Source: Microbulbifer litoralis
Lineage (GTDB): Bacteria; Pseudomonadota; Gammaproteobacteria; Pseudomonadales; Cellvibrionaceae
DNA length: 64,000 bases
Direction of reading: 5' to 3'
Assembly (NCBI RefSeq): GCF_023634065.1
Contig: NZ_JALKCV010000005.1
Span: 186,001-250,000, forward strand
The notes under the pieces were generated by a model. That model was given only the letters and a program-made list of their open reading frames with translations, made no database searches and had not been told where the DNA came from. Shown here piece by piece: positions 8,186 through 47,498 of this stretch; within the stretch, counting starts at the first letter, position 1, and every line of letters begins with the position of its first letter. A program made the translations under genes and the position numbers.

Positions 8186-10180
8186 ATGGCCGATACACCT
8201 CTCGTCGCCCCCGAGCGCAACCTGCGCGAACTCACACTGAAAGCGCTGATTCTCGGCGCTATCCTGTCGGCGGTGCTGGCCGCCGCCAACGCCTATATCG
8301 GCCTGCTGGTGGGCCTGACCGTCTCCGCCTCCATTCCCGCCGCCGCGGCCTCGATGGGCATACTGCGGCTGTTCCGCCGTTCCACCATCCTGGAAAACAA
8401 TATGGTGCAGACCGCCGCCTCGGCGGGGGAATCCCTTGCCGCTGGGATTATCTTTACGCTACCGGCACTGGTGATCATGGGCGCCTGGGACGGCTACCAC
8501 TGGGGCACCATGGCATTGATCGGTGTGCTCGGCGGCATTCTCGGTGTCGCCTTTACCATTCCGCTGCGGCGCGCGCTGATTGTGGAAACCCAGCTGGCAT
8601 TCCCCGAGGGTGTCGCTACCGCGCAGGTACTGAAAACCGGTGGTATCGAAACCGACAAGGATCACCCCGAGTACCGTCACGATGAGGAGGCCCAACGCAG
8701 TTTCCGTGTACTGTTGAGCGCCGCCGGCCTGGGCGGGCTGATCAAGCTGCTGGAATCCGGCGTGGGCCTGCTGGCCGGCGGTGTCGCCGCGACGCGCAGC
8801 TGGCTGGGCGGCAACTGGCTGTTTACCGGCAATATCACCCTGAGCCCGGCGCTGCTCGGCGTGGGCTATATCGTCGGCCGCAATATTGCCTCGCTGGTGT
8901 TTATCGGCGGCGCCATCGGCACCCTGATCGGCGTGCCGCTCAACTGGCTGCTGAATCGCGAAGAACTGATGGGCATTGCCGGCGTCAGTGGCGCAATGGA
9001 AAACTGGAGCGGACAGGATTGGCAGGACCTGGCCAACACCTCCTGGCAGCAGTGCCGCCGCATCGGGGTCGGCGCCATGATGGTGGGCGGCGTCTGGTCG
9101 CTATTCACACTGGCGCGGCCATTGGCGGTGGGCGTGCGTGCGTCACTGCACGCGCACCGGCAGTCGAAAACCCACGGCACCACCGCCCTGCGCACGGAAC
9201 AGGATACCCCGATTCCGTACGTGGGCCTGCTGGTGCTGCTGTCTTCCGTGCCGCTCTATTTTATTTTCCTGCACGCGCTGGACGGCTATCCGGAGCGCGC
9301 CTGGATCGCGGCCATCATGTCCGCCCTGATGCTGCTGCTCGGCTTTGTATTCGCCTCGGTGGCCGGTTACATGGCCGGCCTGGTGGGCTCCAGCAACAAT
9401 CCCATCAGTGGCGTCACCATTGCCACGGTCATCGTCTCGGCGCTGATCCTGCTGCAGTTGATGGGCAACCAGGGCATGGGCGCGAAACTCGGCCCCATCG
9501 CAGTCATGTACCTGGCCGGCATGATCTGCTCCGCCGCGGCCATCGCCGGCGACAATATGCAGGACCTGAAGTGCGGCCATATCGTCGGCGCCACGCCCTG
9601 GCGCCAGCAGCTGTTCCAGATGGTCGGTGTGGTGGCCGCCGCCGGCGCCATCCCGCTGGTGCTGTCGATACTCGACCAGGGCTACGGCATCGGCCGCGTC
9701 AGTCCACTGAACCCGGGAGCGACACCGCTGTCCGCGCCACAGGCAAACCTGATGCGCGACCTGTCCACCGGCATCTTCGGCGCCGGTATCGAGTGGGCCT
9801 ATATCTTTATCGGTTTCGGGCTGGCGGCGATATTGATCGTGCTGGACCAGGTCCAGAAAAACCGCGGCTCGGATTTCCGCTTCCCGGTACTGGCGGTCGC
9901 CGTGGGTGTCTACCTGCCGCTGGGCCTGTCGGTGCCGATTTTTCTCGGCGGCCTGCTGGCGCACTGGCAGCGCAAACATCGTGCTGGCGACAGCGAGGGG
10001 AACGGACTACTGCTGGCATCCGGGTTGATTACCGGCGAGGCATTGATGGGCGTGCTGGTGGCGGTATTGGCGGTGACGCTGCCAGGGCAGGTGCCGTTCC
10101 TGAAAGAACTGGCGATCTCACCGTGGTTGGGACTGCTGGGATTGGCGATGTGTTTCTTTTACTTGCTTAAAAAAGGCTGA
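8186..10180 (+). CDS. OPT-family oligopeptide transporter
   Basis: Inner-membrane transporter of 664 residues with about 15 hydrophobic segments along its whole length. OPT proteins import small peptides or metal-siderophore complexes by proton symport. The ATG at 8186 follows a GGGGA stretch. Seen: an N-terminal ANAYIGLLVGLTVSASIPAA segment, the conserved SAGESLAAGIIFTLPAL region, QLAFPEGVATAQVL, the loop GSSNNPISGVT, and GDNMQDLKCGHIVGATPW, all typical of the bacterial OPT subfamily. It stands alone and ends at a strong bidirectional terminator shared with the convergent TonB-dependent receptor gene. The actual substrate cannot be read from sequence. Confidence 0.93.
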   Translation: MADTPLVAPERNLRELTLKALILGAILSAVLAAANAYIGLLVGLTVSASIPAAAASMGILRLFRRSTILENNMVQTAASAGESLAAGIIFTLPALVIMGAWDGYHWGTMALIGVLGGILGVAFTIPLRRALIVETQLAFPEGVATAQVLKTGGIETDKDHPEYRHDEEAQRSFRVLLSAAGLGGLIKLLESGVGLLAGGVAATRSWLGGNWLFTGNITLSPALLGVGYIVGRNIASLVFIGGAIGTLIGVPLNWLLNREELMGIAGVSGAMENWSGQDWQDLANTSWQQCRRIGVGAMMVGGVWSLFTLARPLAVGVRASLHAHRQSKTHGTTALRTEQDTPIPYVGLLVLLSSVPLYFIFLHALDGYPERAWIAAIMSALMLLLGFVFASVAGYMAGLVGSSNNPISGVTIATVIVSALILLQLMGNQGMGAKLGPIAVMYLAGMICSAAAIAGDNMQDLKCGHIVGATPWRQQLFQMVGVVAAAGAIPLVLSILDQGYGIGRVSPLNPGATPLSAPQANLMRDLSTGIFGAGIEWAYIFIGFGLAAILIVLDQVQKNRGSDFRFPVLAVAVGVYLPLGLSVPIFLGGLLAHWQRKHRAGDSEGNGLLLASGLITGEALMGVLVAVLAVTLPGQVPFLKELAISPWLGLLGLAMCFFYLLKKG

Positions 10181-16141: not shown

Positions 16142-16732
16142 TTATTGGTATTTGATCTTCATCGTCTGGTATTCGAAATTCAGCACGCGAATCACCAGCC
16201 GGCGGTTTTCCCGTTTCCCGGCGGCCGTGCTGTTGTCGGCGATTGGCCGGGTGTCGCCGAACCCCTCGGCGGTGATGCGCTCGCCGTCGATACCGCGCTC
16301 GATAAGGAAGCGGCGCACCCAGTCGGCGCGCCACTGGGACAATTTCAGGTTTTTCTCCGACTCGCCGGCGTTGTCGGTATGACCCTCGATGGCAACCTTC
16401 AGGCCCGGGAAGTCGCGCATGATCACCAGCAGCGCCTCTATATCCGACAGGGTATCCATACGCGGCGCAAAACCACCCGGCTCGAATTCCACCTGCAGAA
16501 TAAAACCGGCGCCGGTGTTACTGTCGCGCGGTTTGCCGCGCAGGTAGCGCACCATTTCGTCGGCAAAGGGGGCGGCGTCGCGAGCGGCTTTCTCGCCGTC
16601 GCCGGTTACCACTTCCGCCAGTGGATCCAGGGTGTATTTCTTATGCGGGTCGTAGCAACCGCCCAGGGCCAACACACTGCATAACAGGCAGGCCGACGGT
16701 ATCGACACGGATAGAGGGCACGGCCTCAACAT
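16142..16732 (-). CDS. OmpA-family outer-membrane lipoprotein
   Basis: 196-residue lipoprotein with a C-terminal peptidoglycan-binding OmpA domain. The chosen start is the ATG at 16732 (MLRPCPLSVS), giving a lipoprotein signal ending LALGGC; a longer in-frame start at 16789 is less likely. The OmpA-like domain shows VAIEGHTDNAGESEKNLKLS, WVRRFLIERGIDGERI, EGFGDTRPIADN and the closing KRENRRLVIRVL. Such proteins tether the outer membrane to the cell wall. It is divergent from the tandem secreted-protein genes that start at 16988. Confidence 0.88.
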   Translation of the reverse strand: MLRPCPLSVSIPSACLLCSVLALGGCYDPHKKYTLDPLAEVVTGDGEKAARDAAPFADEMVRYLRGKPRDSNTGAGFILQVEFEPGGFAPRMDTLSDIEALLVIMRDFPGLKVAIEGHTDNAGESEKNLKLSQWRADWVRRFLIERGIDGERITAEGFGDTRPIADNSTAAGKRENRRLVIRVLNFEYQTMKIKYQ

Positions 16733-16987
16733 TCGCAGGCACTCCCGGATTGACCGACGTCGCCCGCATTCTAGTGTCGCGCAAGCCATCGACCAATCAA
16801 TACCGCGGAGTCAGGGCAAATATCCCAGGGGGCACTTCCAGCCCGATAGCCGCTGCGATTCCGCTTACCCCTAAGCAAATCCCCACACCCCGCGGCAAGC
16901 GTGCGCCAGCGGCATCCTGTTTCGGTGTTACCGTCCCGCTGCGACCTCGCCTTTTGTCATCCACCACCAGCCATTTCCCGACAAACA

Positions 16988-17530
16988 ATGGACCAGACCA
17001 TGAACGCGACAACCTTCCTCAAGCGCCTGCTCGCCCCGCTCGCACTGATCTTCTCCATCGCGGCAGGGGCCCCGGCACAGGCCGAGACCGTCACACTGAA
17101 CTGCAGTGTCGGCACCGAAATAGTGCACTACTCCCCGGGCATCACGAACACACCCAAGCCCACCACCATCACGGGCACCGAACAGCTGACCGCCTGTGTC
17201 GGGGTGCCACTGGGAATCTCCAACGCACAGATCAGTGTCAGCGGTTCCGGCAATATCGGCTGCGAAAGCAGTGATGCGGACATCACCCTCGATATTCTCT
17301 GGGGAGACCAGACCACCAGCACCGCCGAGGTGGTGAATGCCATCACGCAGAGACCCGCCGGGCAGATCATCCTGGTCAGCGAGGCGGAGATCGTTTCCGG
17401 CCGCTTTGTCGGGGCCACGCTGATCAGAACCGTAACGCTACTGCAGACAGACCTGGCCGGCTGCAGCACACCGGAAGGCGTCACCAGTGCCGCGGGACCG
17501 ATCACCATGACCGTGACCTCGCTGCTTTGA
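16988..17530 (+). CDS. Secreted protein, uncharacterised PGITNTP family, paralogue 1
   Basis: 180 residues, signal peptide ending GAPAQA, mature part about 150 residues and rich in Thr, Ser, Gly and Val. Family features shared with the next two genes: CSVGTEIVHYSPGITNTPKP, a Cys-containing TACVGVPLGISNA, SGSGNIGC, W.D.TTS.AEVVN, Q.P.GQI, EAEIVSGRFVGATLIRT, and GCSTPEGVTS...TMT.LL at the C terminus. Four conserved cysteines suggest disulfides in the periplasm or outside. Similar YSPG-type secreted proteins of unknown role occur in Actinobacteria, by my recollection of the pattern. Start is either this ATG or the one at 17000. No function is proposed. Confidence 0.8.
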   Translation: MDQTMNATTFLKRLLAPLALIFSIAAGAPAQAETVTLNCSVGTEIVHYSPGITNTPKPTTITGTEQLTACVGVPLGISNAQISVSGSGNIGCESSDADITLDILWGDQTTSTAEVVNAITQRPAGQIILVSEAEIVSGRFVGATLIRTVTLLQTDLAGCSTPEGVTSAAGPITMTVTSLL

Positions 17531-17556
17531 GCAGCCGACAAAAAAGGAAAGCAAAA

Positions 17557-18072
17557 ATGAAAGCAACAGCAATAGCGTTACTGGCAATCGCACTGCAGAT
17601 GATCGGTTCCGGGCACGCCTCCGCCCAGATAGCGACATTGACGTGTCCACTCGGGTCGACGATTACCCACTACACGCCCGGTATCACCAATACCCCAAAG
17701 CCGACAACCCTGGAGTCCACTTCATTACTCAGTGCTTGTGTGGGACTACCACTGGGTATTTCAAACGCGACAATCACAACCTCAGGCTCCGGCAATCTCG
17801 GCTGCGACGGCGGCACGCCGTTCGTGACTACCAATGTCGTCTGGAGCGACGGTACCACCAGCAGTGCGCAGGCAAACAATATCGTGGTTCAACGACCACT
17901 CGGACAGGTCATCGTCATTGAAGAGTCGGAAATCATATCCGGCAGGTTCATCGGCGCAACACTGGTCAGGACCCTGACACTGCTGCAGACCGATTTCGAT
18001 GGCTGTAGCAGCCCGGAAGGGGTAACCAGTGTCGGCGGCCCTACAACACTGACCATGACCAACCTGCTATAG
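17557..18072 (+). CDS. Secreted protein, uncharacterised PGITNTP family, paralogue 2
   Basis: 171 residues with signal peptide ending GHASA and the same architecture as its neighbour: LTCPLGSTITHYTPGITNTP, LSACVGLPLGISNA, SGSGNLGC, W.DGTTSSAQ.N, QRPLGQVIVI, ISGRFIGATLVRTLTLLQTD, GCSSPEGVTS and a final LTMTNLL. The ATG at 17557 has an AAGGAAAG ribosome site, and only 26 bases separate it from paralogue 1, so the two are very probably co-transcribed. Cysteine positions are conserved between the copies. Function unknown. Confidence 0.82.
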   Translation: MKATAIALLAIALQMIGSGHASAQIATLTCPLGSTITHYTPGITNTPKPTTLESTSLLSACVGLPLGISNATITTSGSGNLGCDGGTPFVTTNVVWSDGTTSSAQANNIVVQRPLGQVIVIEESEIISGRFIGATLVRTLTLLQTDFDGCSSPEGVTSVGGPTTLTMTNLL

Positions 18073-18157
18073 GGGTGGTGGGCGGCAACCACTGGAAACC
18101 CAACATCACTATCAGATTGTTACTTCCTTAGACAGTAAACACAGATGGAGAAAGAGA

Positions 18158-18685
18158 ATGCATTTACTGAAGATAGCCTCAGGAGTGGTTCTGATACCGC
18201 TGTTCTCATTGTTCCTGGGGGCCGGCAGTGCCGCAGCCCAGATAACAACGCTGACGTGTCCACTTGGAACCAACATCACTCACTACACACCAGGCATAAC
18301 AAACACGCCGAAAACCACTACATTTGTAGCCACTTCTGTATTAAGTGCCTGCACTGGGCTACCGCTCGGCATATCTAATGCCCAAATTACGACTACAGGT
18401 TTTGGTGAAATCGGCTGCAACAGCAACACTGCGACAATAAACAGCGAAATACTCTGGAGTGATGGCACTGAAAGTGCTGCGGAAGTAAACAACCAAGTAG
18501 TCCAGCGCCCTGTGGGGCAAGTCGTTGTTATTCAGGAGTTAGAAATAGTATCGGGCAGATTTTCAGGAGCAACACTGGTCAGAACTCTTACGCTGCTGCA
18601 AACCGACTTCGATGGCTGCAGCAGTCCGGAAGGCGTGACCAGTGTAGCAGGCCCAGAAACGCTGACCATGACCAATCTACTGTAA
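18158..18685 (+). CDS. Secreted protein, uncharacterised PGITNTP family, paralogue 3
   Basis: 175 residues, signal peptide ending GSAAA, then LTCPLGTNITHYTPGITNTP, LSACTGLPLGISNA, GFGEIGC, LWSDGTESAAEVNN, QRPVGQVVVI, VSGRFSGATLVRTLTLLQTD, GCSSPEGVTS and LTMTNLL. A GGAGAAAGAG stretch precedes the ATG. It is clearly more AT-rich than paralogue 1 although the proteins are close, so the copies have diverged in base composition. It ends 15 bases before the convergent HAD phosphatase gene. Function unknown. Confidence 0.82.
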   Translation: MHLLKIASGVVLIPLFSLFLGAGSAAAQITTLTCPLGTNITHYTPGITNTPKTTTFVATSVLSACTGLPLGISNAQITTTGFGEIGCNSNTATINSEILWSDGTESAAEVNNQVVQRPVGQVVVIQELEIVSGRFSGATLVRTLTLLQTDFDGCSSPEGVTSVAGPETLTMTNLL

Positions 18686-18700
18686 AGGCGATTGCTCCAG

Positions 18701-19348
18701 TTACAGAAAACCCACCACGGCCATCAGATCCCTGACCACCCGTGCGCCGGCCCTTTCCAGCTGTGGGGTCCGCACCGGGTGGTTGCTGTAGCCCACTACC
18801 GGCATCTCCGCCGCCACCGCCGCTTTGACGCCGGCAATGGAGTCCTCTACTACCAGGCAGCGCTCCGGTTCCACCCCCATGGACTGCGCCGCATGCAGGA
18901 ACAGGTCCGGGTGGGGCTTGCCGCGGGAGACATCGTCGGCGCTGAAAATACGTCCGTCGAAATACTCGTACAGACCGGTCTTGTTCAGGGTCAGGCGCAT
19001 TTTTTCATGGGAGCCGGACGAGGCCACGCAGCTGCGCAAGTTGACCTGTAACAGGTGGTCGAGCAGATCCTCGATACCGGCAATCGGCTGCAGCTCGCTG
19101 TGGAAGGCCTCGCGGATGCGCCGCTCGGTATTGCCGAAGTACTGGTCCGGCAGTGGGCCGCCGTAGCGGGTTTCGATTTCCAGCAGGCAGTCTTTGGCCG
19201 GGCGACCGCTGAACTGCTCGTCCAGTTCCTCCGCGGTGGTCTCCATACCGAGTTTGTTCATTTCCTCGGCGAGGATGCGGCAGACGATCGTCTCGCTGTC
19301 CACCAGCACGCCGTCACAATCGAAAATCACCAGTTCAGTGGCAAGCAT
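18701..19348 (-). CDS. HAD-superfamily phosphatase (YieH/beta-phosphoglucomutase-like)
   Basis: 215-residue cytosolic hydrolase. HAD motif I is FDCDGVLVDSE (nucleophile Asp10 and acid/base Asp12), followed by a helical cap with the SGRPAKDCLLEIE segment. Motif II is VASSGSHEK, motif III the lysine in RGKPHPDLFL, and motif IV VVEDSIAGVKAA. The pattern matches the 6-phosphogluconate/sugar-phosphate phosphatase group; substrate cannot be fixed from sequence. The next gene on the strand is a small membrane protein 13 bases upstream of its start, so the two may be transcribed together. Confidence 0.9.
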   Translation of the reverse strand: MLATELVIFDCDGVLVDSETIVCRILAEEMNKLGMETTAEELDEQFSGRPAKDCLLEIETRYGGPLPDQYFGNTERRIREAFHSELQPIAGIEDLLDHLLQVNLRSCVASSGSHEKMRLTLNKTGLYEYFDGRIFSADDVSRGKPHPDLFLHAAQSMGVEPERCLVVEDSIAGVKAAVAAEMPVVGYSNHPVRTPQLERAGARVVRDLMAVVGFL

Positions 19349-35987: not shown

Positions 35988-36335
35988 AGACTGTAGAAAA
36001 ACCATCCCGGATAACAAGCTTTCCGCAGCCATAATTTTGGCTACCTGTTCAAGTCGATTTAAACACAGTCGCTTTTATATAGCCATTCAATCAGAAAACT
36101 CCGCAGATTGGCTATTCCAGCGACCTACCGGCTCAATGAATCGCTCTATAATTCATCAGTTTCTCAATATTGTGTACCAGGAAGAAGATCTGCCAGTATC
36201 CATGAACCTTTTCTCGATCTCGTAATGAGAACCGATTCAGGCTTTTGTTAGTCCCGGTATTGCCGAATGCCGGCTTTACCACGAACATGCGGTGCCTCTC
36301 GCGATTTGCGCCCCGCACCTCTCGGCGCTTCGTTA
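35988..36335 (-). mobile_element. Truncated IS1182-like insertion sequence
   Basis: Remnant of a DDE transposon: terminal repeat AGACTGTAGAAAAACC at 35988, about 130 bases of 3' non-coding DNA, then the transposase C terminus reading from about 36335. The terminal repeat is nearly the same as that of the 164 bp junction elements. The left part of the element is missing. It abuts CTCGTTATGC, the start of the lipoprotein cassette. Confidence 0.75.
36133..36335 (-). pseudogene. Transposase C-terminal fragment (IS1182-like, DDE)
   Basis: About 65 residues with the typical end of IS1182/IS5-superfamily transposases: VVKPAFGNTGTNKSLNRFSL, RDREKVHGYWQIFFLVHNIE, KLMNYR. The conserved Glu of the V-E-P-V-F-G motif is replaced (VKPAFG). 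The rest of the protein, including the catalytic Asp residues, is absent, so it is inactive. Confidence 0.8.
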
Positions 36336-36464
36336 CATTGTCCAGGCCGCTGCTTTATTCAGGCCCGTAGATTCGCCCAGTGACATGGGCGGTTCCGTCC
36401 ATATCTAGCGGAACAACTTCATCGCGCGACTTCGTGTCGCACCTATCCTTATTCGTTATGCGCT
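36336..36464. other. Non-coding stretch with attC remnant after the esterase cassette
   Basis: Directly after the esterase stop codon the minus strand reads GCGCATAACG (36454-36463), which is the R'' box expected for that cassette because the cassette starts GTTATGCG. Short hairpins follow, but no complete attC or R' box can be defined before the IS remnant. Confidence 0.5.
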
Positions 36465-37316
36465 TTACTCGCCGACTTGCGACGAGAGCCAAGTTACACT
36501 TCGCACTACAGTCATAGGTAGCGCCGCCTGATGATCACCTTCAATAACTAAGTGCTTCAATGACAAGCTGTTATCATTTCTACTTTCTAGGATAGTGATA
36601 AGCTTTTCAGCTTCATCTCCAAGCTCACTCTCAAGCGATCCATATGAAACAAAAACGTTTGAATTTAGGCTCTCAATTTTTTCTTCCAGATTGGCTTCGA
36701 TATCAGCAAGGTAAGGGATATCGCCAACAATTGAAGGGCTACCAAGAATGTAGTTCTTAAACGTATCGGGTTTCGTGAGTAGTATGTATGCACCTAATTC
36801 ACTACCAAGTGAATACCCAAAGAAAGTACGATTTTTAGAATCGGCTCGGTAGTTGCTCTCTACATACTTAATTATGTCACTACGAATAAAATTTAGATGA
36901 TTATGCGCCTTTCCAAGTTGGTACTTTTGCTGCACTTCTTTCTTACTTGATGCTTGCATTGTGTAGTCACGATACCTACTTACATGAGGTCCTGCTTCCT
37001 TTAATAAACTCTCATCTATATCAGTTTGCCAGGAAATTCCGACCAAAATAGCGTCTTCCATCAAATATTCTGTTGTAGCAGATAAAATCTCGATATTCCA
37101 AGCCGCATCTGGAAAATAGATAGCGGGGAATTTTTTATCGTCTCTCTCGAAGTATTTCTCTGGCAGCTTTACATAAAGATCATATTGCCAATCAGACACA
37201 GAATCTCTGATAGGAACTATGTTGGTTCTAGGAATTTCATATGACTTTCGATCATTTGCTTCAACGCTTACAAAAGAAAACATAAACAAACAAAATATAA
37301 CCAGATTCTTCATCAT
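36465..37316 (-). CDS. Secreted alpha/beta-hydrolase (esterase D/Fes-like), gene cassette
   Basis: 283 residues with a signal peptide (MMKNLVIFCLFMFSFVSVEA). It belongs to the putative-esterase alpha/beta-hydrolase group: a nucleophile elbow GYSLGSELGAYI with the catalytic Ser, PDAAWNIEIL near the oxyanion region, and the C-terminal histidine in IEGDHQAALPMTVV. Related enzymes hydrolyse siderophores or carboxylic esters in the periplasm; the substrate here is unknown. It is AT-rich compared with the backbone. The cassette begins GTTATGCG right after junction element copy 1, and its own R'' box CGCATAAC follows the stop codon. Confidence 0.85.
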   Translation of the reverse strand: MMKNLVIFCLFMFSFVSVEANDRKSYEIPRTNIVPIRDSVSDWQYDLYVKLPEKYFERDDKKFPAIYFPDAAWNIEILSATTEYLMEDAILVGISWQTDIDESLLKEAGPHVSRYRDYTMQASSKKEVQQKYQLGKAHNHLNFIRSDIIKYVESNYRADSKNRTFFGYSLGSELGAYILLTKPDTFKNYILGSPSIVGDIPYLADIEANLEEKIESLNSNVFVSYGSLESELGDEAEKLITILESRNDNSLSLKHLVIEGDHQAALPMTVVRSVTWLSSQVGE

Positions 37317-37340
37317 ATTATTTTCTCATTTCGCATAACG

Positions 37341-37504
37341 AGGCTGTAGAAAAACTCCAGCCCCTCCTTGCTGTTCATATTTTACTCAAAAAGCGCGCTT
37401 CTACGTGAATTCTGCACCTATTCTCCATGACGAAAAGCATTTCAGGGCGCTCTCCACACGAAAAATTAACATGCTCCAGAATTACTCGAGTTTTTCTACA
37501 GCCT
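37341..37504. mobile_element. Cassette-junction element, intact copy 1 (164 bp)
   Basis: Bounded by perfect 17 bp inverted repeats AGGCTGTAGAAAAACTC and GAGTTTTTCTACAGCCT. On the minus strand it is preceded by ...GGCGTTC (end of the attC at 37502-37618) and followed by CGTTATGCG, the start of the esterase cassette. CGTT occurs on both sides, consistent with a 4 bp duplication. No transposase is encoded. Confidence 0.9.
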
Positions 37505-37618
37505 GAACGCCGTGCGCAGCGGCGGCTTACTTTGTGTAGTTTTTGCGCGAAAATAGGAGCGTAGCGACTGCGCAAAAATGCATGAAGTAAGACGTCGGTC
37601 TGCCGCACCTTGTTATGC
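37502..37618 (-). other. attC recombination site B
   Basis: On the minus strand it starts with R'' GCATAAC, which includes the TAA stop of the membrane-protein cassette, and ends with GTTCAGG at the junction element. Central arms GCGGCAGACC...GTCTTACTT and AAGTAAGCCGCCGC pair over about 30 bases around a GCGCAAAAA/TTTTTGCGC stem. This is the normal imperfect attC hairpin. Confidence 0.88.
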
Positions 37619-38101
37619 CACTCTACGTACAGCACTGAAAAGCCGATAATCATGCTTCTGCCAAAGCCATGCCAAGATAGTTGTAGTAGTAACAGTAATT
37701 AAAGTGGCGATGGCTCTATAGACCCCAGACTCGCTTTGTATTGAAATTCCTTCCGCTCCCCCCTGCCCAGGGCTTGGTCCAAAACTCATCGCATGCAAAC
37801 CATAAACTAAGGATACAAACAGAACAGATAAAAAATGCACAGAGAGAACGGCCCGAAAGAAAACAGGAGATAGAGAATTCTTTGCAAGCTCAACTGCTAG
37901 CAGGGAAAACATCAAGGGTAGAAATATGGTATTCCCTATGTAACTAAATTTTAACCCATGTATTACCCATTGACCGCTGTCACTCATAAGCTCGGTACCA
38001 AAATCTTCTGACAAAAATGCGGTAACTGCACGACCCAAGATAAAAAACGCCAATACAACCGCCAGCCACTTTGGCTGAAGCTTTTTTAGTAGACCTTCCA
38101 T
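37613..38101 (-). CDS. Four-helix membrane protein, gene cassette
   Basis: 162 residues with about four hydrophobic segments (LAVVLAFFILGRAVTAFL, IGNTIFLPLMFSLLAVEL, FLSVLFVSLVYGLHAM, AIATLITVTTTTILAWLW). It has a basic start MEGLLKKLQPKW and a basic end RRVA. I do not recognise a characterised family. A strong AAGGAGG ribosome site precedes the ATG. The cassette begins GTTATGCC, 22 bases before the ATG, and its stop codon lies inside its own attC R'' box, the compact layout typical of integron cassettes. Confidence 0.8.
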   Translation of the reverse strand: MEGLLKKLQPKWLAVVLAFFILGRAVTAFLSEDFGTELMSDSGQWVIHGLKFSYIGNTIFLPLMFSLLAVELAKNSLSPVFFRAVLSVHFLSVLFVSLVYGLHAMSFGPSPGQGGAEGISIQSESGVYRAIATLITVTTTTILAWLWQKHDYRLFSAVRRVA

Positions 38102-38122
38102 GAGTAAACCTCCTTTTTTATG

Positions 38123-38178
38123 GCATAACGTAGCAAGCGCGCCGCTTTTTGGCGTCGCTTGCCTAAACTTGTTCTGTT
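38123..38178 (-). other. attC recombination site C
   Basis: Short 56 bp site. On the minus strand it runs from ACAGAAC through the pairing arms GGCAAGCGACGCC and GGCGCGCTTGC around AAAAA to R' GTTATGC. It separates the decayed cassette at 38163-38495 from the membrane-protein cassette. Confidence 0.9.
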
Positions 38179-38495
38179 GGGTGAGTTGCAGTCCCCTCCG
38201 AACCCCTCTCTTCTTTCCGCCTGGCTTTTCTCGCAGCCTTGTCTGTTACCATCTGCTCGACTGATCGAACAATATCAGGCCCACTTTTATTGAAGTGCTT
38301 GAAATATAGCTTCTCAATATAATCCGGCAAAGGCTACTTCCATGGTTCTTGCTTGTGGTTGGCCAGACCTCTAAATTTCTTGGGGTTTAGACCAAGCTCC
38401 CTGGCCATCTGCACTTGAGCATGCGACAACCGATACTTCTTTCGTGCCTCAATCCAAGGTCTCAACTTCTGCGGAATAAAACCAGATTTTGCCAT
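38163..38495 (-). pseudogene. Conserved cassette protein with an in-frame amber stop
   Basis: From the ATG at 38495 one frame of 110 codons encodes a basic protein (MAKSGFIPQKLRPWIEARKK, LSHAQVQMARELGLNPKKF, NHKQEPWK). It is interrupted by TAG at codon 54 (38334-38336) and continues without further damage as PLPDYIEKLYFKHFNKSGPD, ending inside the attC. The pattern matches a small helix-turn-helix-like hypothetical family I remember as frequent in integron cassettes. One nonsense base separates it from an intact gene. Cassette start GTTCTGTTG is complementary to its own R'' CAACAGAAC. Confidence 0.82.
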
Positions 38496-38520
38496 TCACC
38501 TAAAGCCTGAATCCTCTGCA

Positions 38521-38640
38521 ACAGAACGCCGAGCTCACCGAAATATTTTACGGAGATCGTTTTTGTGTGAGAATGAAGCGCAGCGGAATGCACAAAAACG
38601 AGCGTAGTAAAATATTTCCGCTTGCAGCTTTTTGTTATGC
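38521..38640 (-). other. attC recombination site D
   Basis: 120 bp. On the minus strand R'' TGCATAAC directly follows the zinc-ribbon gene's stop codon, and R' is GTTCTGT. The inner arms GAAATATTTTAC and GTAAAATATTTC are exact complements, with GCACAAAAACGA/TCGTTTTTGTG-type pairing at the tip. Confidence 0.9.
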
Positions 38641-38641
38641 A

Positions 38642-38968
38642 TTACCGAATGTACTCCAGCTGAGCATTTGATTTTTCCAGCAATCTTGAAATGCGCCAAG
38701 AAACAAATAGTGCAATTCCCCACCAAATGCTACCAAATAGGTTGATAGAGGCTATCGCAAGAACAAAAACTAGTATTTCTAGTGCGACACCCCATAGTGG
38801 GTTATCGCTACTTTTTATACTTACCACAGCATGGCAGTTTTTACACTCACTCACGATACCTGGAATATAGAGAGTTTGAAGCACAAGATTTTTGCGAGAT
38901 ATCGTCTCTTCCTGACAGTATGGACATTTCCTATTTTTCATAAAACTCGGCAGTTGTTGATTTTGCAT
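38642..38968 (-). CDS. Zinc-ribbon membrane protein, gene cassette
   Basis: 108 residues from the ATG at 38968, which is part of the cassette core GTTATGC; the ATG nine codons later is an alternative. Two Cys pairs (CPYC and CKNC) form a zinc ribbon, followed by about two membrane segments (LWGVALEILVFVLAIASI, IWWGIALFVSW) and a basic tail. The frame is open upstream through the whole right end of junction element copy 2 to an ATG at 39010, so a 122-residue version starting inside the element is possible. Function unknown. Confidence 0.75.
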   Translation of the reverse strand: MQNQQLPSFMKNRKCPYCQEETISRKNLVLQTLYIPGIVSECKNCHAVVSIKSSDNPLWGVALEILVFVLAIASINLFGSIWWGIALFVSWRISRLLEKSNAQLEYIR

Positions 38969-38972
38969 AACG

Positions 38973-39136
38973 AGGCTGTAGAAAAACTCCAGCTCCTCCT
39001 TGCTGTTCATATTCTACTCAAAAATCGTGCTTCTACGTGAATTCTACACCTGTTCTCCATGACGAAAAGCATTTCAGGGCGCTCTCCGCACGAAAGATTA
39101 ACATGCTCCAGAATTACTCGAGTTTTTCTACAGCCT
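38973..39136. mobile_element. Cassette-junction element, intact copy 2 (164 bp)
   Basis: Same 17 bp perfect terminal repeats as copy 1 and nearly identical interior. On the minus strand it lies between attC E (...GCGGCGTTC) and CGTTATGC, the start of the zinc-ribbon cassette, with CGTT on both sides. Confidence 0.9.
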
Positions 39137-39251
39137 GAACGCCGCACTCAGACGCGGACAATTTTGTGCGCTTTATGCGCGATAATGGGAGCGTAGCGAC
39201 CGCGCATAAAGTGCGCAAAGTTGGCCGTCGGCCTGAAGCGGATTGTTAATG
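39134..39251 (-). other. attC recombination site E
   Basis: 118 bp. Minus strand: R'' CATTAAC, arms GACGGCCAACTTTGCGCAC and GTGCGCACAAAATTGTC-type pairing around CTTTATGCGCG/CGCGCATAAAG, ending GTTCAGG at junction element copy 2. R'' is the exact complement of GTTAATG, the start of the two-gene cassette it belongs to. Confidence 0.9.
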
Positions 39252-39278
39252 TGACGGTGGCACAGGAACCCCTGGAGG

Positions 39279-39545
39279 TTACGGGATTTGATTATCCCAT
39301 GTATCCGAGTAACCATTGTTTCCACAGTGTATGTGCAATGTTGTGTAAATTTTCTCTAGATAATATCCAAGATCTTTATCTTCGATAGTTTTATCAACAA
39401 TTTTCCAATAGAACTTAGCTAATTGAGCGACTTCTTCTTCGCTGGAAACACCTGACTCAATTATCTTGATAATTTCTTTATTTCCAAATTCACTAGCGTA
39501 GTGAACAAGTATTTCCTTTTCCTTTTTATCTTTGAACTCGATCAT
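39279..39545 (-). CDS. Small acidic protein, second gene of a two-gene cassette
   Basis: 88 residues, acidic and helical (MIEFKDKKEKEILVHYASEF, EVAQLAKFYWKIVDKTIEDK). It ends HCGNNGYSDTWDNQIP. Its ATG overlaps the TGA of the upstream gene by 4 bases, so translation is coupled. Size and charge fit an immunity or antitoxin partner for that gene, but this is conjecture. Family not recognised. The cassette's attC (E) follows the stop codon. Confidence 0.7.
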   Translation of the reverse strand: MIEFKDKKEKEILVHYASEFGNKEIIKIIESGVSSEEEVAQLAKFYWKIVDKTIEDKDLGYYLEKIYTTLHIHCGNNGYSDTWDNQIP

Positions 39546-40018
39546 AATGCATCCTGCGCATCTTTAATTACTGACATTCTATCCGCTACCCACTCTAGTT
39601 TTGAACGTAACTCAGAAACCGTCATTTTCTTCGTTACTGAGAGTAGAAAGTGCTGCTTCTTTTTATCTCTTGGATCTACGTTAAACTTTAACCCATCTGG
39701 AATCTTCGCTTTTTCCAACACCCAAAATACGTGCACCCTTTGTCCCGGATTTCGTTTTGATTTCATCCGGTGAATACCTTTCAAGTGTTGCCAATGTCCG
39801 GAAAAAGAAAGACCATGATCAGCCGAAGGCATAATCCATTTTCCACAATTTGAAAAGACATAATCATCTCGTTGGATTCCGTTCACTACTTCTCGATTTG
39901 AACTACCTGGATTGATATACAAAGTAGGATGCTCACCTTCTACGATTGGTCTCGCAAACCACTTTTCTAGCCTTTTTATTGCATCCCTTAAATCTTCTGT
40001 TGTTTTAAACTGCTCCAC
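39542..40018 (-). CDS. Hypothetical protein, first gene of a two-gene cassette (possible toxin)
   Basis: 158 residues, GTG start at 40018 with a very strong AAGGAGAGAGA ribosome site. Notable segments: HPTLYINPGSSNREVVNGIQ, GKWIMPSADHGLSFSGHW, KIPDGLKFNVDPRDKKKQHF and LLSVTKKMTVSELRSKL. The second half faintly resembles Tse2-type ADP-ribosyltransferase toxins in layout (an IPxGL segment, a basic stretch, then a K-x-M-x-x-x-x-L end). I cannot verify this by alignment. It is coupled to the 88-residue gene by an ATGA overlap. Cassette start GTTAATG matches its attC R'' CATTAAC. Confidence 0.65.
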   Translation of the reverse strand: MEQFKTTEDLRDAIKRLEKWFARPIVEGEHPTLYINPGSSNREVVNGIQRDDYVFSNCGKWIMPSADHGLSFSGHWQHLKGIHRMKSKRNPGQRVHVFWVLEKAKIPDGLKFNVDPRDKKKQHFLLSVTKKMTVSELRSKLEWVADRMSVIKDAQDAL

Positions 40019-44911: not shown

Positions 44912-45412
44912 TCAGTTTCTCCCGCCCAGCCGCTCGCTGAGTTTCTGTCGCGCGCGGTTCAGGCGCACTGCGACGTTGGATTCCCCGATGCCCAGCACTT
45001 CCGAGATCTCCGCATAGCTGAGCCCTTCCAGGCGCAGGGTCAGGGTCTGGCGCAAGCCCAGGGGCAGCTGCTGCACGGCGGCCAGGAGACGCTCGGAATC
45101 GCGTCGCGAAGCCAGCTGCTCTGCCGGACCGGGCGCGGAGTCCGCCAGTTGCTCCAGCGCGTCTTCCGCGGCGCCCTCCGGTCGCCGGCGCGCCAGCGCG
45201 GTAACCGCGCGGTTGTGCGCTATGCGGAAAACGAAGGTTTTCAGGCTGGCATCACCGCGAAAGGATGGCAGCGCGCGCCATACCGCGAGCCAGATATCCT
45301 GCGCCAGGTCATCGCGCTCGGCACTGTTGCGCACATAGCTGCCGGCAACGCGGGCAATGGCGGCGCCGTGGTCGGCGACTAACTGCTGGAATAACTGCTC
45401 GCTGGCTCTCAC
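44912..45412 (-). CDS. ECF-type RNA polymerase sigma factor
   Basis: 166 residues, two-domain sigma factor. Region 2 is seen in YVRNSAERDDLAQDIWLAVW and LKTFVFRIAHNRAVTALARR. Region 4 is seen in LQQLPLGLRQTLTLRLEGLS-type sequence, then YAEISEVLGIGESNVAVRLN and RARQKLSERL. The next gene encodes a membrane protein, probably its anti-sigma factor. Divergently, a fourth member of the uncharacterised secreted family starts at 45672, so the 259 bp between them may hold promoters recognised by this sigma factor. Confidence 0.92.
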   Translation of the reverse strand: MRASEQLFQQLVADHGAAIARVAGSYVRNSAERDDLAQDIWLAVWRALPSFRGDASLKTFVFRIAHNRAVTALARRRPEGAAEDALEQLADSAPGPAEQLASRRDSERLLAAVQQLPLGLRQTLTLRLEGLSYAEISEVLGIGESNVAVRLNRARQKLSERLGGRN

Positions 45413-45671
45413 GCGGACTTTCCCCTGGTACCCGGAGTTACAGTATCCGCAGCCAGGAAAAACTTACACAAAAATTTTCTATGGAAAATGGACTCCAGTC
45501 CCTATCCAGTCCGACAGGAACTGGTGCTGCCGGAATTTGTAGCGCCAATATTGTTGTGCCTGTTCACAACCGCCCGAAAACAGAATATCTACAGCGTCAG
45601 GCAAAATAAAAGGCCGGATCCTTGTGTTAAGGATAGTGGGTAGTCGAGAAGCCATTAACCGAGGATATTCC

Positions 45672-46217
45672 ATGAAAACTTCAAAAACCAGAACAGGCAC
45701 CAGCAGATTGAGTCACCGCACCCTGGCCCTGTTTGCGCTTGCCATAAGCCTGGCACTGCCTTCAGGTAATGCCCTGGCCGTCGGGGAGCTGACCTGCGTT
45801 GCCAGTTCGGAAATCAGCTACTCCCCCGGCCTGCGTCTGTTTACCCAACAGACCGACATCACTTTCGATACCGGTTACAGCGGCTGTACATCACTGACCG
45901 GCTCGCCAATTATCTCCGGCAGCCGCTCCGGCAGCTTCAGTGGTCCGCGCAGTTGCCTGGCACTGCCACCAAGCGGGTCTGCACTGGTGGAAGTAACCTG
46001 GAGCAACGGGCAGATCAGCGTTGTGGATGCGACCAGCCAGAGCACCGATGCCGCCGGCCAGACAATACACCTGATCACCGGCCCGATCATTTCCGGGCCC
46101 TTCACCGGAAGAACCTTCAATGAACAGATTGTGCAGGCATCCCTGGACCTGCTCTACTGCCTGACAGCGCCCGGCGTAACATTCCAGAGCGGTACCGGGG
46201 TGATGGAAATCCTGTAG
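45672..46217 (+). CDS. Secreted protein, distant member of the PGITNTP family, paralogue 4
   Basis: 181 residues, signal peptide ending GNALA. The mature part follows the same plan as the three tandem genes at 17-18.7 kb but is divergent: CVASSEISYSPGLRLFTQQT, GYSGCTSLTGSPIISGSRSG, RSCLALPPSGSALVEVTWSN, GQTIHLITGPIISGPFTGRT and LLYCLTAPGVTFQSGTGVME. Cysteines are again spaced through the chain. A GAGG ribosome site precedes the ATG. It is divergent from the ECF sigma operon. The YSPG, W.NGQ, G...I.SG.F.G and C..PGV core shows the common ancestry. No function is known to me. Confidence 0.78.
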   Translation: MKTSKTRTGTSRLSHRTLALFALAISLALPSGNALAVGELTCVASSEISYSPGLRLFTQQTDITFDTGYSGCTSLTGSPIISGSRSGSFSGPRSCLALPPSGSALVEVTWSNGQISVVDATSQSTDAAGQTIHLITGPIISGPFTGRTFNEQIVQASLDLLYCLTAPGVTFQSGTGVMEIL

Positions 46218-46409
46218 CTCAAGCCAACCAGCCCCCGCGCACAGCGGACCCGCGCCCGCCGAGGCGGGGTCCGCAGCCCACCACAAGTTCCGCCGGTGCG
46301 ACAAAGCGACTGGATTCCGCGGTAACCAAACTTTAATAATCCCCTCCCGCCCAAATATTTCTTCCCGACCCGGGCCCTTCCGCCCGTCCTGCAATTGTTC
46401 AGAAGTCGC

Positions 46410-47498
46410 ATGCCCAGAAGTACCCGTTATTGTTCTATCGAAAAACCCGTCATTACCCATCGGTTTTTTTGTCTTGTTCTATTCAGTTTATCCACGGCGC
46501 TGTTCGTGCTCAGTTCATCGGCCCTTGCCGATACCGGAAAAACCGACAGCGCATTGCAGGCAGTCACCCTGCGTATCGACAACGATATCTTTGCCGGCAG
46601 CGACCGGGGTTATTCCAACGGTATCAATATCGGCTTCCTGTCACAGACGGTGGACGACTTCGATGACTCGCGGCTGCCCGCCAGTTACCGATGGCTGAAT
46701 CATGGCCTGGGCTGGCTGCAGCCGCGGGAATGGGATCAGTACAATATGGCGTTGACTGTCGGCCACGGTATTTTTACCCCGGGCGACTGGCGCGCCAGCG
46801 AGCTGGTGAAAGACGACCGGCCCTACGCCGGCGTGCTGCTTGTCGGCGTGGACTATAACGGCAGAAGCGATAACCGCATGCAGAGTACCGGCCTGGACCT
46901 GGGGATTATCGGCCCCTCGGCATTGGGAGAGGATCTGCAAAAAGGTGTGCACAAGCTGCTGGGGTCGGAGACATTCCGCGGCTGGGACAACCAGCTTCGC
47001 GACGAACTGGTCTTCCGCCTGTCGACCCAGCGCCTGTATCGCCTGCATATCGAGCCCGGCGGGGGTGGCGACTGGCAACAAGACCTGATACTGCGCACTG
47101 GCGGCAGTTTTGGTAACCTGGTCACCGATCTCAATATCGGCGCCGAGTGGCGCTTCGGCCCGCAACTACCGGACAATTTCGGCAGCGCGCCGCTGTTGCC
47201 GGCGTCGGAAAACACCGTGCCCACGCGCCACAGGGATTACAGCCGCCGCCTGAAACTGCACGGCTTTATCGCCACCAACCTGCGCGGCGTCATCTATGAT
47301 GTCACACTGGACGGCAACACCTGGAAAGACAGCCACAGCGTCACTCGCGAACCACTGGTACTGGACCTGGGCATAGGCGTGGCGGGTAGTTACGGGCACT
47401 GGCGGTTCGCTTTTGCGCACTATTTCCGTAGCCGCGAATTCGAGCAACAGGAAGAGCCGCCCAGACTCGGTAGTTTCAGTGCCTGGCGGGAGTTCTGA
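46410..47498 (+). CDS. LpxR-like lipid A deacylase, outer membrane
   Basis: 362 residues from the ATG at 46410, with a signal peptide ending SSSALA. It matches the LpxR (DUF2219) beta-barrel family, whose members remove the 3'-acyloxyacyl group of lipid A at the outer-membrane surface. Seen: LRIDNDIFAGSDRGYSNGIN (conserved Asn-Asp and Ser region), TVGHGIFTPGDW (catalytic His), DDRPYAGVLLVGV, LGSETFRGWDNQLRDEL and a C-terminal beta strand ending SAWREF. The gene stands alone. The length and motif order agree with the family. Confidence 0.88.
   Translation: MPRSTRYCSIEKPVITHRFFCLVLFSLSTALFVLSSSALADTGKTDSALQAVTLRIDNDIFAGSDRGYSNGINIGFLSQTVDDFDDSRLPASYRWLNHGLGWLQPREWDQYNMALTVGHGIFTPGDWRASELVKDDRPYAGVLLVGVDYNGRSDNRMQSTGLDLGIIGPSALGEDLQKGVHKLLGSETFRGWDNQLRDELVFRLSTQRLYRLHIEPGGGGDWQQDLILRTGGSFGNLVTDLNIGAEWRFGPQLPDNFGSAPLLPASENTVPTRHRDYSRRLKLHGFIATNLRGVIYDVTLDGNTWKDSHSVTREPLVLDLGIGVAGSYGHWRFAFAHYFRSREFEQQEEPPRLGSFSAWREF

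Follow-up and report, generated by a model that had tools for sequence, protein, structure and literature searches.

A patchily distributed family of small, exported-looking four-cysteine proteins with a predicted barrel fold, represented by four genes in Microbulbifer litoralis

Four genes (W1–W4) in a 64,000-nucleotide stretch of Microbulbifer litoralis DNA (the window; contig C5 of the genome) belong to one family of small exported proteins that is without a Pfam or NCBIfam model and undescribed in the curated libraries searched. The best explanation of the data, to which a probability of roughly 45% is given, is an exported barrel, held by two disulphides, that binds a ligand or steers a reaction. 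The genes concerned in the window are:

16142..16789, reverse strand: OmpA-family gene, upstream of W1
17000..17530, forward strand: family copy W1, with putative signal peptide and an alternative in-frame start at 16988
17557..18072, forward strand: family copy W2, 26 bases past W1
18158..18685, forward strand: family copy W3, the copy modelled with AlphaFold2
18701..19348, reverse strand: HAD-family hydrolase, downstream of W3
44912..45412, reverse strand: ECF-like sigma factor, divergent from W4
45672..46217, forward strand: family copy W4, of a subgroup other than that of W1–W3
46395..47498, forward strand: LpxR-family outer membrane protein, downstream of W4 (Pfam run on 46449–47495)

The open reading frames of W1 (16901–17530; in-frame ATG codons at 16988 and 17000), W2 (17527–18072; ATG at 17557), W3 (18158–18685) and W4 (45624–46217; ATG at 45672), all on the forward strand, give products of 171–181 residues with signal-peptide-like N termini; mature W1, W2 and W3 would begin at about 17084, 17626 and 18239, respectively. 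W2 and W3 are spaced by 85 bases. The blocks HYxPGITNTP, PLGISNA, SGRFxGATLxRT and GCSxPEGVTS are common to W1, W2 and W3; identity to W3 over the matched part is 69% (W2) and 60% (W1). With W3 as query, E-values of 1.9e-72 (W2), 6.7e-59 (W1) and 3.4e-5 (W4) were obtained, so that the similarity reflects homology and not chance, and the original prediction that the three adjacent exported genes and the distant fourth form one family was borne out. GC contents diverge as had been stated: 0.629 (W1), 0.563 (W2), 0.505 (W3) and 0.591 (W4). All four cysteines and the tryptophan of the family are present in each copy.

The neighbour of W4 on the reverse strand is of the sigma-70 type (regions 2 and 4), in agreement with the divergent sigma gene described earlier. 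Orthologues of W4 (63–78% identical) were found in three other species of the genus, and the ECF sigma gene was not found in the 13–14 kb around them in 3/3 species; the W4–ECF adjacency therefore says little. Elsewhere in the window, positions 36000–40000 have a GC content of 0.43 (window-wide 0.597) and hold one ORF of at least 180 aa (36465–37316, esterase-like by eye).

Search of the own genome with profile A1 (17 members) gave 14 matches, i.e. 13 intact copies and one fragment: four on C5, six and one C-terminal fragment on C14, two on C25 and one on C12. The previously reported number of four copies holds for the window; these are 4 of the 13 intact copies of the genome. Within the genus, 6/48 genomes (own included) were positive with A1, with 25 matches in total, one of them stop-broken; an even draw of the class gave 2/321 genomes, own included, the other match being a weak stretch with three stops. 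A Streptomyces plasmid protein (tblastn) matched plasmid records of Streptomyces (three, the query's own included) and Nostoc (one), and W4 as query matched two of those Streptomyces records. No match to W4 was found in phage records, no family match in viral contigs (three scans) and none in the genome-contig collection with W3 as query; Streptomyces protein P0001 gave one match in this collection, in Actinomadura parmotrematis (G388).

With profile A2, the counts of which include the centre genomes as known carriers, 4/296 genomes were positive in an even draw of the phylum of A. parmotrematis, 51/249 in its order and 29/197 in the order of G634 (same phylum); a larger overlapping draw of the G634 order gave 62/391 genomes with profile A7 at E 1e-6. 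In most genomes the best 10–17 candidate stretches were scored and the per-genome counts are perhaps low; the maximum was nine copies (G989). Carriage in the two Actinomycetota orders amounts to roughly 15–20% of the genomes drawn, actinomycetes being the most frequent carriers among the groups sampled. Paired copies (gap of at most 3 kb, by eye) occur in 6/51 and 7/62 positive genomes of these orders, and small arrays are therefore habitual for the family. The distribution is patchy and covers actinomycetes, a cyanobacterial plasmid and the genus of the window; the matches in the two orders and on Streptomyces plasmids substantiate the suggested relation to actinobacterial YSPG proteins.

As the original prediction had anticipated, profile searches placed the proteins in no characterised family. 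For W1–W4 at E 10, Pfam and NCBIfam gave no fitting model (one weak MerP match, E 7.5); Pfam search of 17 members gave no fitting model either, each family listed matching one member. For 45 members each Pfam family listed again matched one member (best Big_6, 7.2e-5; Ig_GpJ_C, 0.004). NCBIfam search of the 45 members listed ten families; a urea transporter model (best 9.9e-5) and a fimbrial isopeptide domain (0.012) matched two members each, and the NCBIfam matches were taken as chance. Search of the PDB by sequence gave a best E of 0.056, and with profile A7 23 sub-threshold matches were obtained, mostly to antibody or IgE chains. The weak sequence matches thus lean to Ig-like domains and would suit a sandwich. 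No publication on the family was found, as judged by titles and abstract openings.

Conservation was assessed on 209 distinct members (profile score of at least 15 bits). Cysteine occupies four columns in 193/193, 202/202, 205/206 and 204/205 aligned residues, so that the conserved cysteines noted in the window copies are near-invariant far beyond the own genome; column 74 holds W in 177/206 and Y in 28/206 (W or Y in 205/206), and P in column 17 and G in columns 101, 106, 110 and 132 are conserved above 93%. In 45/45 rows of A7 the four cysteines stand in fixed order with W between the third and the fourth; these rows were pre-filtered by score, length and N-terminal Cys, and the Cys requirement bears on the first column only. 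Among columns filled in at least 150 rows, none carries a charged residue (D, E, H, K, R) at 50%, the top value being R at 47%; hence the alignment shows no charged residue that could be a conserved catalytic one, which would fit binding or steering better than hydrolysis. A crude rule (hydrophobic stretch and AxA) found a signal-like N terminus in 196/199 members, in line with the signal peptides proposed for the window genes, and by their sequences the members look exported, presumably by a Sec-type route. The divergent C12-type subgroup, found in five genomes of the genus and absent from the A7 rows, has all four cysteines and the tryptophan aligned in its five members; their E-values against A7, for a database size fixed at 10,000, were 1.4e-8 to 7e-4, and C12-type scores with A1 are partly circular, one such member being an A1 row.

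Mature W3 was modelled by AlphaFold2 on an alignment of five sequences (W1–W4 and the Actinomadura protein); the model is all beta, mean pLDDT 80.1, pTM 0.74, with pLDDT 59–80 over its five versions. The W4 model (run with L050) had pLDDT 45 and was unusable. Foldseek gave PloI4 as the best match of the W3 model (probability 0.99, E 5.9e-3), none reaching E 1e-3 against the PDB. The structural neighbours of the W3 model were 2q03 (Z 10.0), the spirotetronate cyclases and relatives AbyU (9.2–8.5), PloI4 (8.8–8.2), AbnU (8.6), PyrI4 and Cyc15 (whole group 9.2–6.4), PodA (8.7) and dirigent proteins (up to 7.7). Barrels of other kinds scored close to these: OmpW 8.1, a designed membrane barrel 8.0, NspA 7.7, PagL 7.6, OmpA 7.3 and streptavidins about 6.3. 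Part of the score is therefore barrel geometry itself; a Z of 10 exceeds only modestly the 7–8 commonly reached by models that match nothing clearly. That immunoglobulin-fold families do not appear among the structural neighbours does not count against them.

Mean-field couplings (200 sequences, effective number 158, 146 columns; strand limits from the W3 model) served as a partly independent check. After removal of nine near-invariant columns, 27 of the 40 strongest pairs were cross-strand; 18/27 joined barrel neighbours (background 0.285), 9/27 joined non-neighbours and none joined strands 4 and 5. When the 60 strongest pairs were scored, the meander cycle 1-2-...-8-1 ranked first of 2520 cyclic orders (28.76), followed by a rearranged order at 28.55. 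Hairpins would score in many folds, and the pairing of the first and last strands is the telling part: pairs 10–138, 19–134 and 2–145 fit an antiparallel ladder, and 16–144 lies off it. For the AOC-type superfamily, model and couplings agree, with a low-depth model, near-tied strand orders, similar Z for other barrels and no sequence homology. An Ig-like sandwich, suited by the Big_6 and PDB matches given above, stands against the barrel model and the 1–8 strand couplings; the disulphide-bonded beta-sandwich put forward in the original prediction is less favoured, and a closed meander barrel is considered the probable fold of the family.

The best structural neighbour, 2q03, which we take to be a DUF3224 protein (PF11528) from Shewanella denitrificans, superimposed on the W3 model with rmsd 3.2 over 116 aligned residues and is similar in length to family members. 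Profile–profile comparison of DUF3224 with the family gave a probability of 0.2, not above column shuffles; 18 aligned DUF3224 rows have no conserved cysteine, unlike the family, and PF11528 matched none of the 45 members at E 0.1, nor W1–W4 at E 10. DUF3224 was rejected as a sequence relative because its profile similarity does not exceed that of shuffled columns. PodA, the pyocyanin demethylase (5k21), aligned with rmsd 3.4 over 115 residues at 12% identity, and no family profile match to the PodA chain was found. The dirigent proteins GePTS1 (6ooc) and PsPTS1 (6ood), of PF03018, are barrels with Z 7.7 and 7.2, within the range that the tool labels a common arrangement; plant dirigents are secreted. 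No Pfam match to PF03018 was found in W1–W4 (E 10) or in the 45 members; its zero matches in 81 genomes are uninformative, the control genomes giving the same. In PMC10946715, spirotetronate cyclases are given a common eight-stranded barrel, (+1)8 in Cyc15, at below 25% identity, with a hydrophobic, aromatic-rich lumen. This (+1)8 order, as reported there, is that of the W3 model and of the top-ranked coupling order. Spirotetronate cyclases act in biosynthetic pathways, whereas family members look exported, carry four cysteines and have no recurrent biosynthetic neighbour that was seen.

An exported, disulphide-stapled barrel with no conserved charged residue and with many diverging copies points to a small-molecule binder or steering protein. 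W1–W4 would be exported by the Sec route and be about 145 residues long when mature; each would form a closed barrel of eight antiparallel strands in meander order, with the architecture of allene-oxide cyclases, dirigents and spirotetronate cyclases. The barrel would be stapled by two disulphides, C7–C38 at one end and C60–C127 at the other (mature W3 numbering); this pairing is read from the model, being beyond covariation because the cysteine columns hardly vary. Outside the cytoplasm the lumen might bind a small, probably hydrophobic molecule and hold it, carry it or steer its reaction; the copies would differ in the lumen and therefore in the ligand. The binding and any chemistry are what we infer from these features taken together.

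A tree of 191 members, 18 of them from the genus and C12-type rows excluded, was built by a quick method and leaves many forks unresolved. The 18 genus rows are scattered in it (at least 6 changes), and forcing them together lowered the log-likelihood by 74.9 (AU p 0.036); several origins of the family in the genus are therefore likely, though not strongly proven. W1–W3 form one clade (support 100), nested in a group of 23 rows (support 96) to which a Streptomyces plasmid protein and a copy from C14 also belong. A copy of another genome of the genus (G059) falls in a 16-row group, the other 15 rows of which are from actinomycetes (support 100), and the plasmid copy of Nostoc sp. HK-01 (L048:5887-6426) groups with three own-genome copies (support 92). 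For W1–W2, dN/dS is 0.22 at dS 1.7, and the other two pairs are synonymous-saturated. Selection for diversity, as proposed for the tandem array, is not what these values indicate; W1–W3 appear to have duplicated long ago and to be kept under purifying selection, and GC declines along the array from W1 to W3.

Patchy spread, several likely origins in the genus, arrays and plasmid copies are typical of competition genes and, with the frequent carriage by actinomycetes, would suit an interbacterial inhibitor or weapon, a small disulphide-rich protein that blocks a competitor's enzyme or receptor (protease-inhibitor-like, bacteriocin-like or an UmbB-like adaptor). This is judged unlikely, as no recurrent immunity-like partner or toxin gene was seen (crude gene calls, clusters by eye) and no profile match to PDB chains was found. 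UmbB of the Streptomyces umbrella toxins is likewise a small secreted actinomycete protein present in several copies; PMC11062931 describes it as carrying an N-terminal motif and pairing with the ALF repeats of UmbC, and reports that no Umb particles were found outside Actinobacteria. Identity with UmbB was set aside, motif, partners and range differing by that description. Profile A7 at E 10 listed no Umb chain in the PDB copy used, a result that bears on UmbB only if its chains are in that copy.

The surroundings of the other own-genome copies bear on two further explanations. One locus is:

L009:1445-14169 (G000 contig C14), near a contig end: luxI/luxR pair amid six family copies and a TSP_3 protein

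On the reverse strand the order is a copy, a protein with 34 TSP_3 repeats, a copy fragment, a copy, LuxR (PF03472 and PF00196), LuxI (PF00765) and four copies, followed by a secreted-looking protein without Pfam match; GC is 0.527 in this stretch and 0.641 beside it. The fragment (L009:7980-8216), C-terminal and directly upstream of an intact copy, is a decayed duplicate. The luxI gene is the one of the own genome, and none was found in the other 47 of 48 genus genomes; no more than 10 kb separates it from six of the 13 intact copies, all of them on its strand. The barrels might on this account be carriers or modifiers of a quorum signal, binding acyl-homoserine lactones or another diffusible signal made nearby. 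Such a role is regarded as improbable: seven copies, W1–W4 included, are on contigs without luxI, the other five positive genomes of the genus have no luxI match, and the tie rests on one island, which can join genes by chance. In 20 upstream stretches three 16-base near-palindromes were found, those of W4, of one copy on C14 and of the decarboxylase gene on C25; luxI, luxR and the array in the window had none.

Contig C25 carries two copies with DUF5122, TSP_3 and DUF11 proteins and a pyridoxal-dependent decarboxylase; the decarboxylase-like gene (L010:8318-10240) lies directly after a family copy. The C12-type loci (L011:4539-8472, L124, L126, L129 and L130) hold a TonB-receptor cluster (5/5), a FecR cluster (4/5) and a FecI-like sigma cluster (3/5), FecR and sigma being named from Pfam at L126 and the receptor from domains at L126 and L011. 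Large ORFs that resemble lipoproteins and have no Pfam match are also present. The arrangement resembles a locus for signalling at the cell surface that includes a secreted partner.

The large repeat proteins beside the C14 and C25 copies, as well as the lipoprotein-like ORFs and TonB receptor beside the divergent subgroup, are in keeping with a structural or adhesive protein of the surface or matrix, a stable cell-coat or biofilm-matrix module with no ligand. The columns conserved above 90% are C, P and G, structural residues, which fits the same role. We hold it to be somewhat unlikely, since neither an anchor or sorting signal (by eye) nor a two-domain ORF was noticed in 110 members, and the repeat-protein neighbours do not recur in 29 actinomycete loci. 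These loci have no specific recurrent neighbour (crude gene calls), the clusters in at least 3 of the 29 being generic by eye (dehydrogenase-, transporter- or kinase-like).

The exported ligand-binding or steering barrel is therefore retained as the preferred reading. A wider extension of it, which we rate as rather doubtful, would have exported, disulphide-stapled AOC-type barrels that bind or steer small molecules cross phyla, moving repeatedly between actinomycetes, cyanobacterial plasmids and the genus, and joined in one island by an AHL quorum-sensing pair, with a signal or quorum-controlled metabolite carried or processed outside the cell. Among barrels of this architecture are enzymes of pericyclic reactions, one that degrades pyocyanin, and steering proteins of the dirigent type. 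If the preferred reading is true, the family would fill a gap in how organisms that are studied for their metabolites handle signals or carry out small-molecule chemistry outside the cell, and its near-invariant four-cysteine core is a clean handle for naming and testing it.
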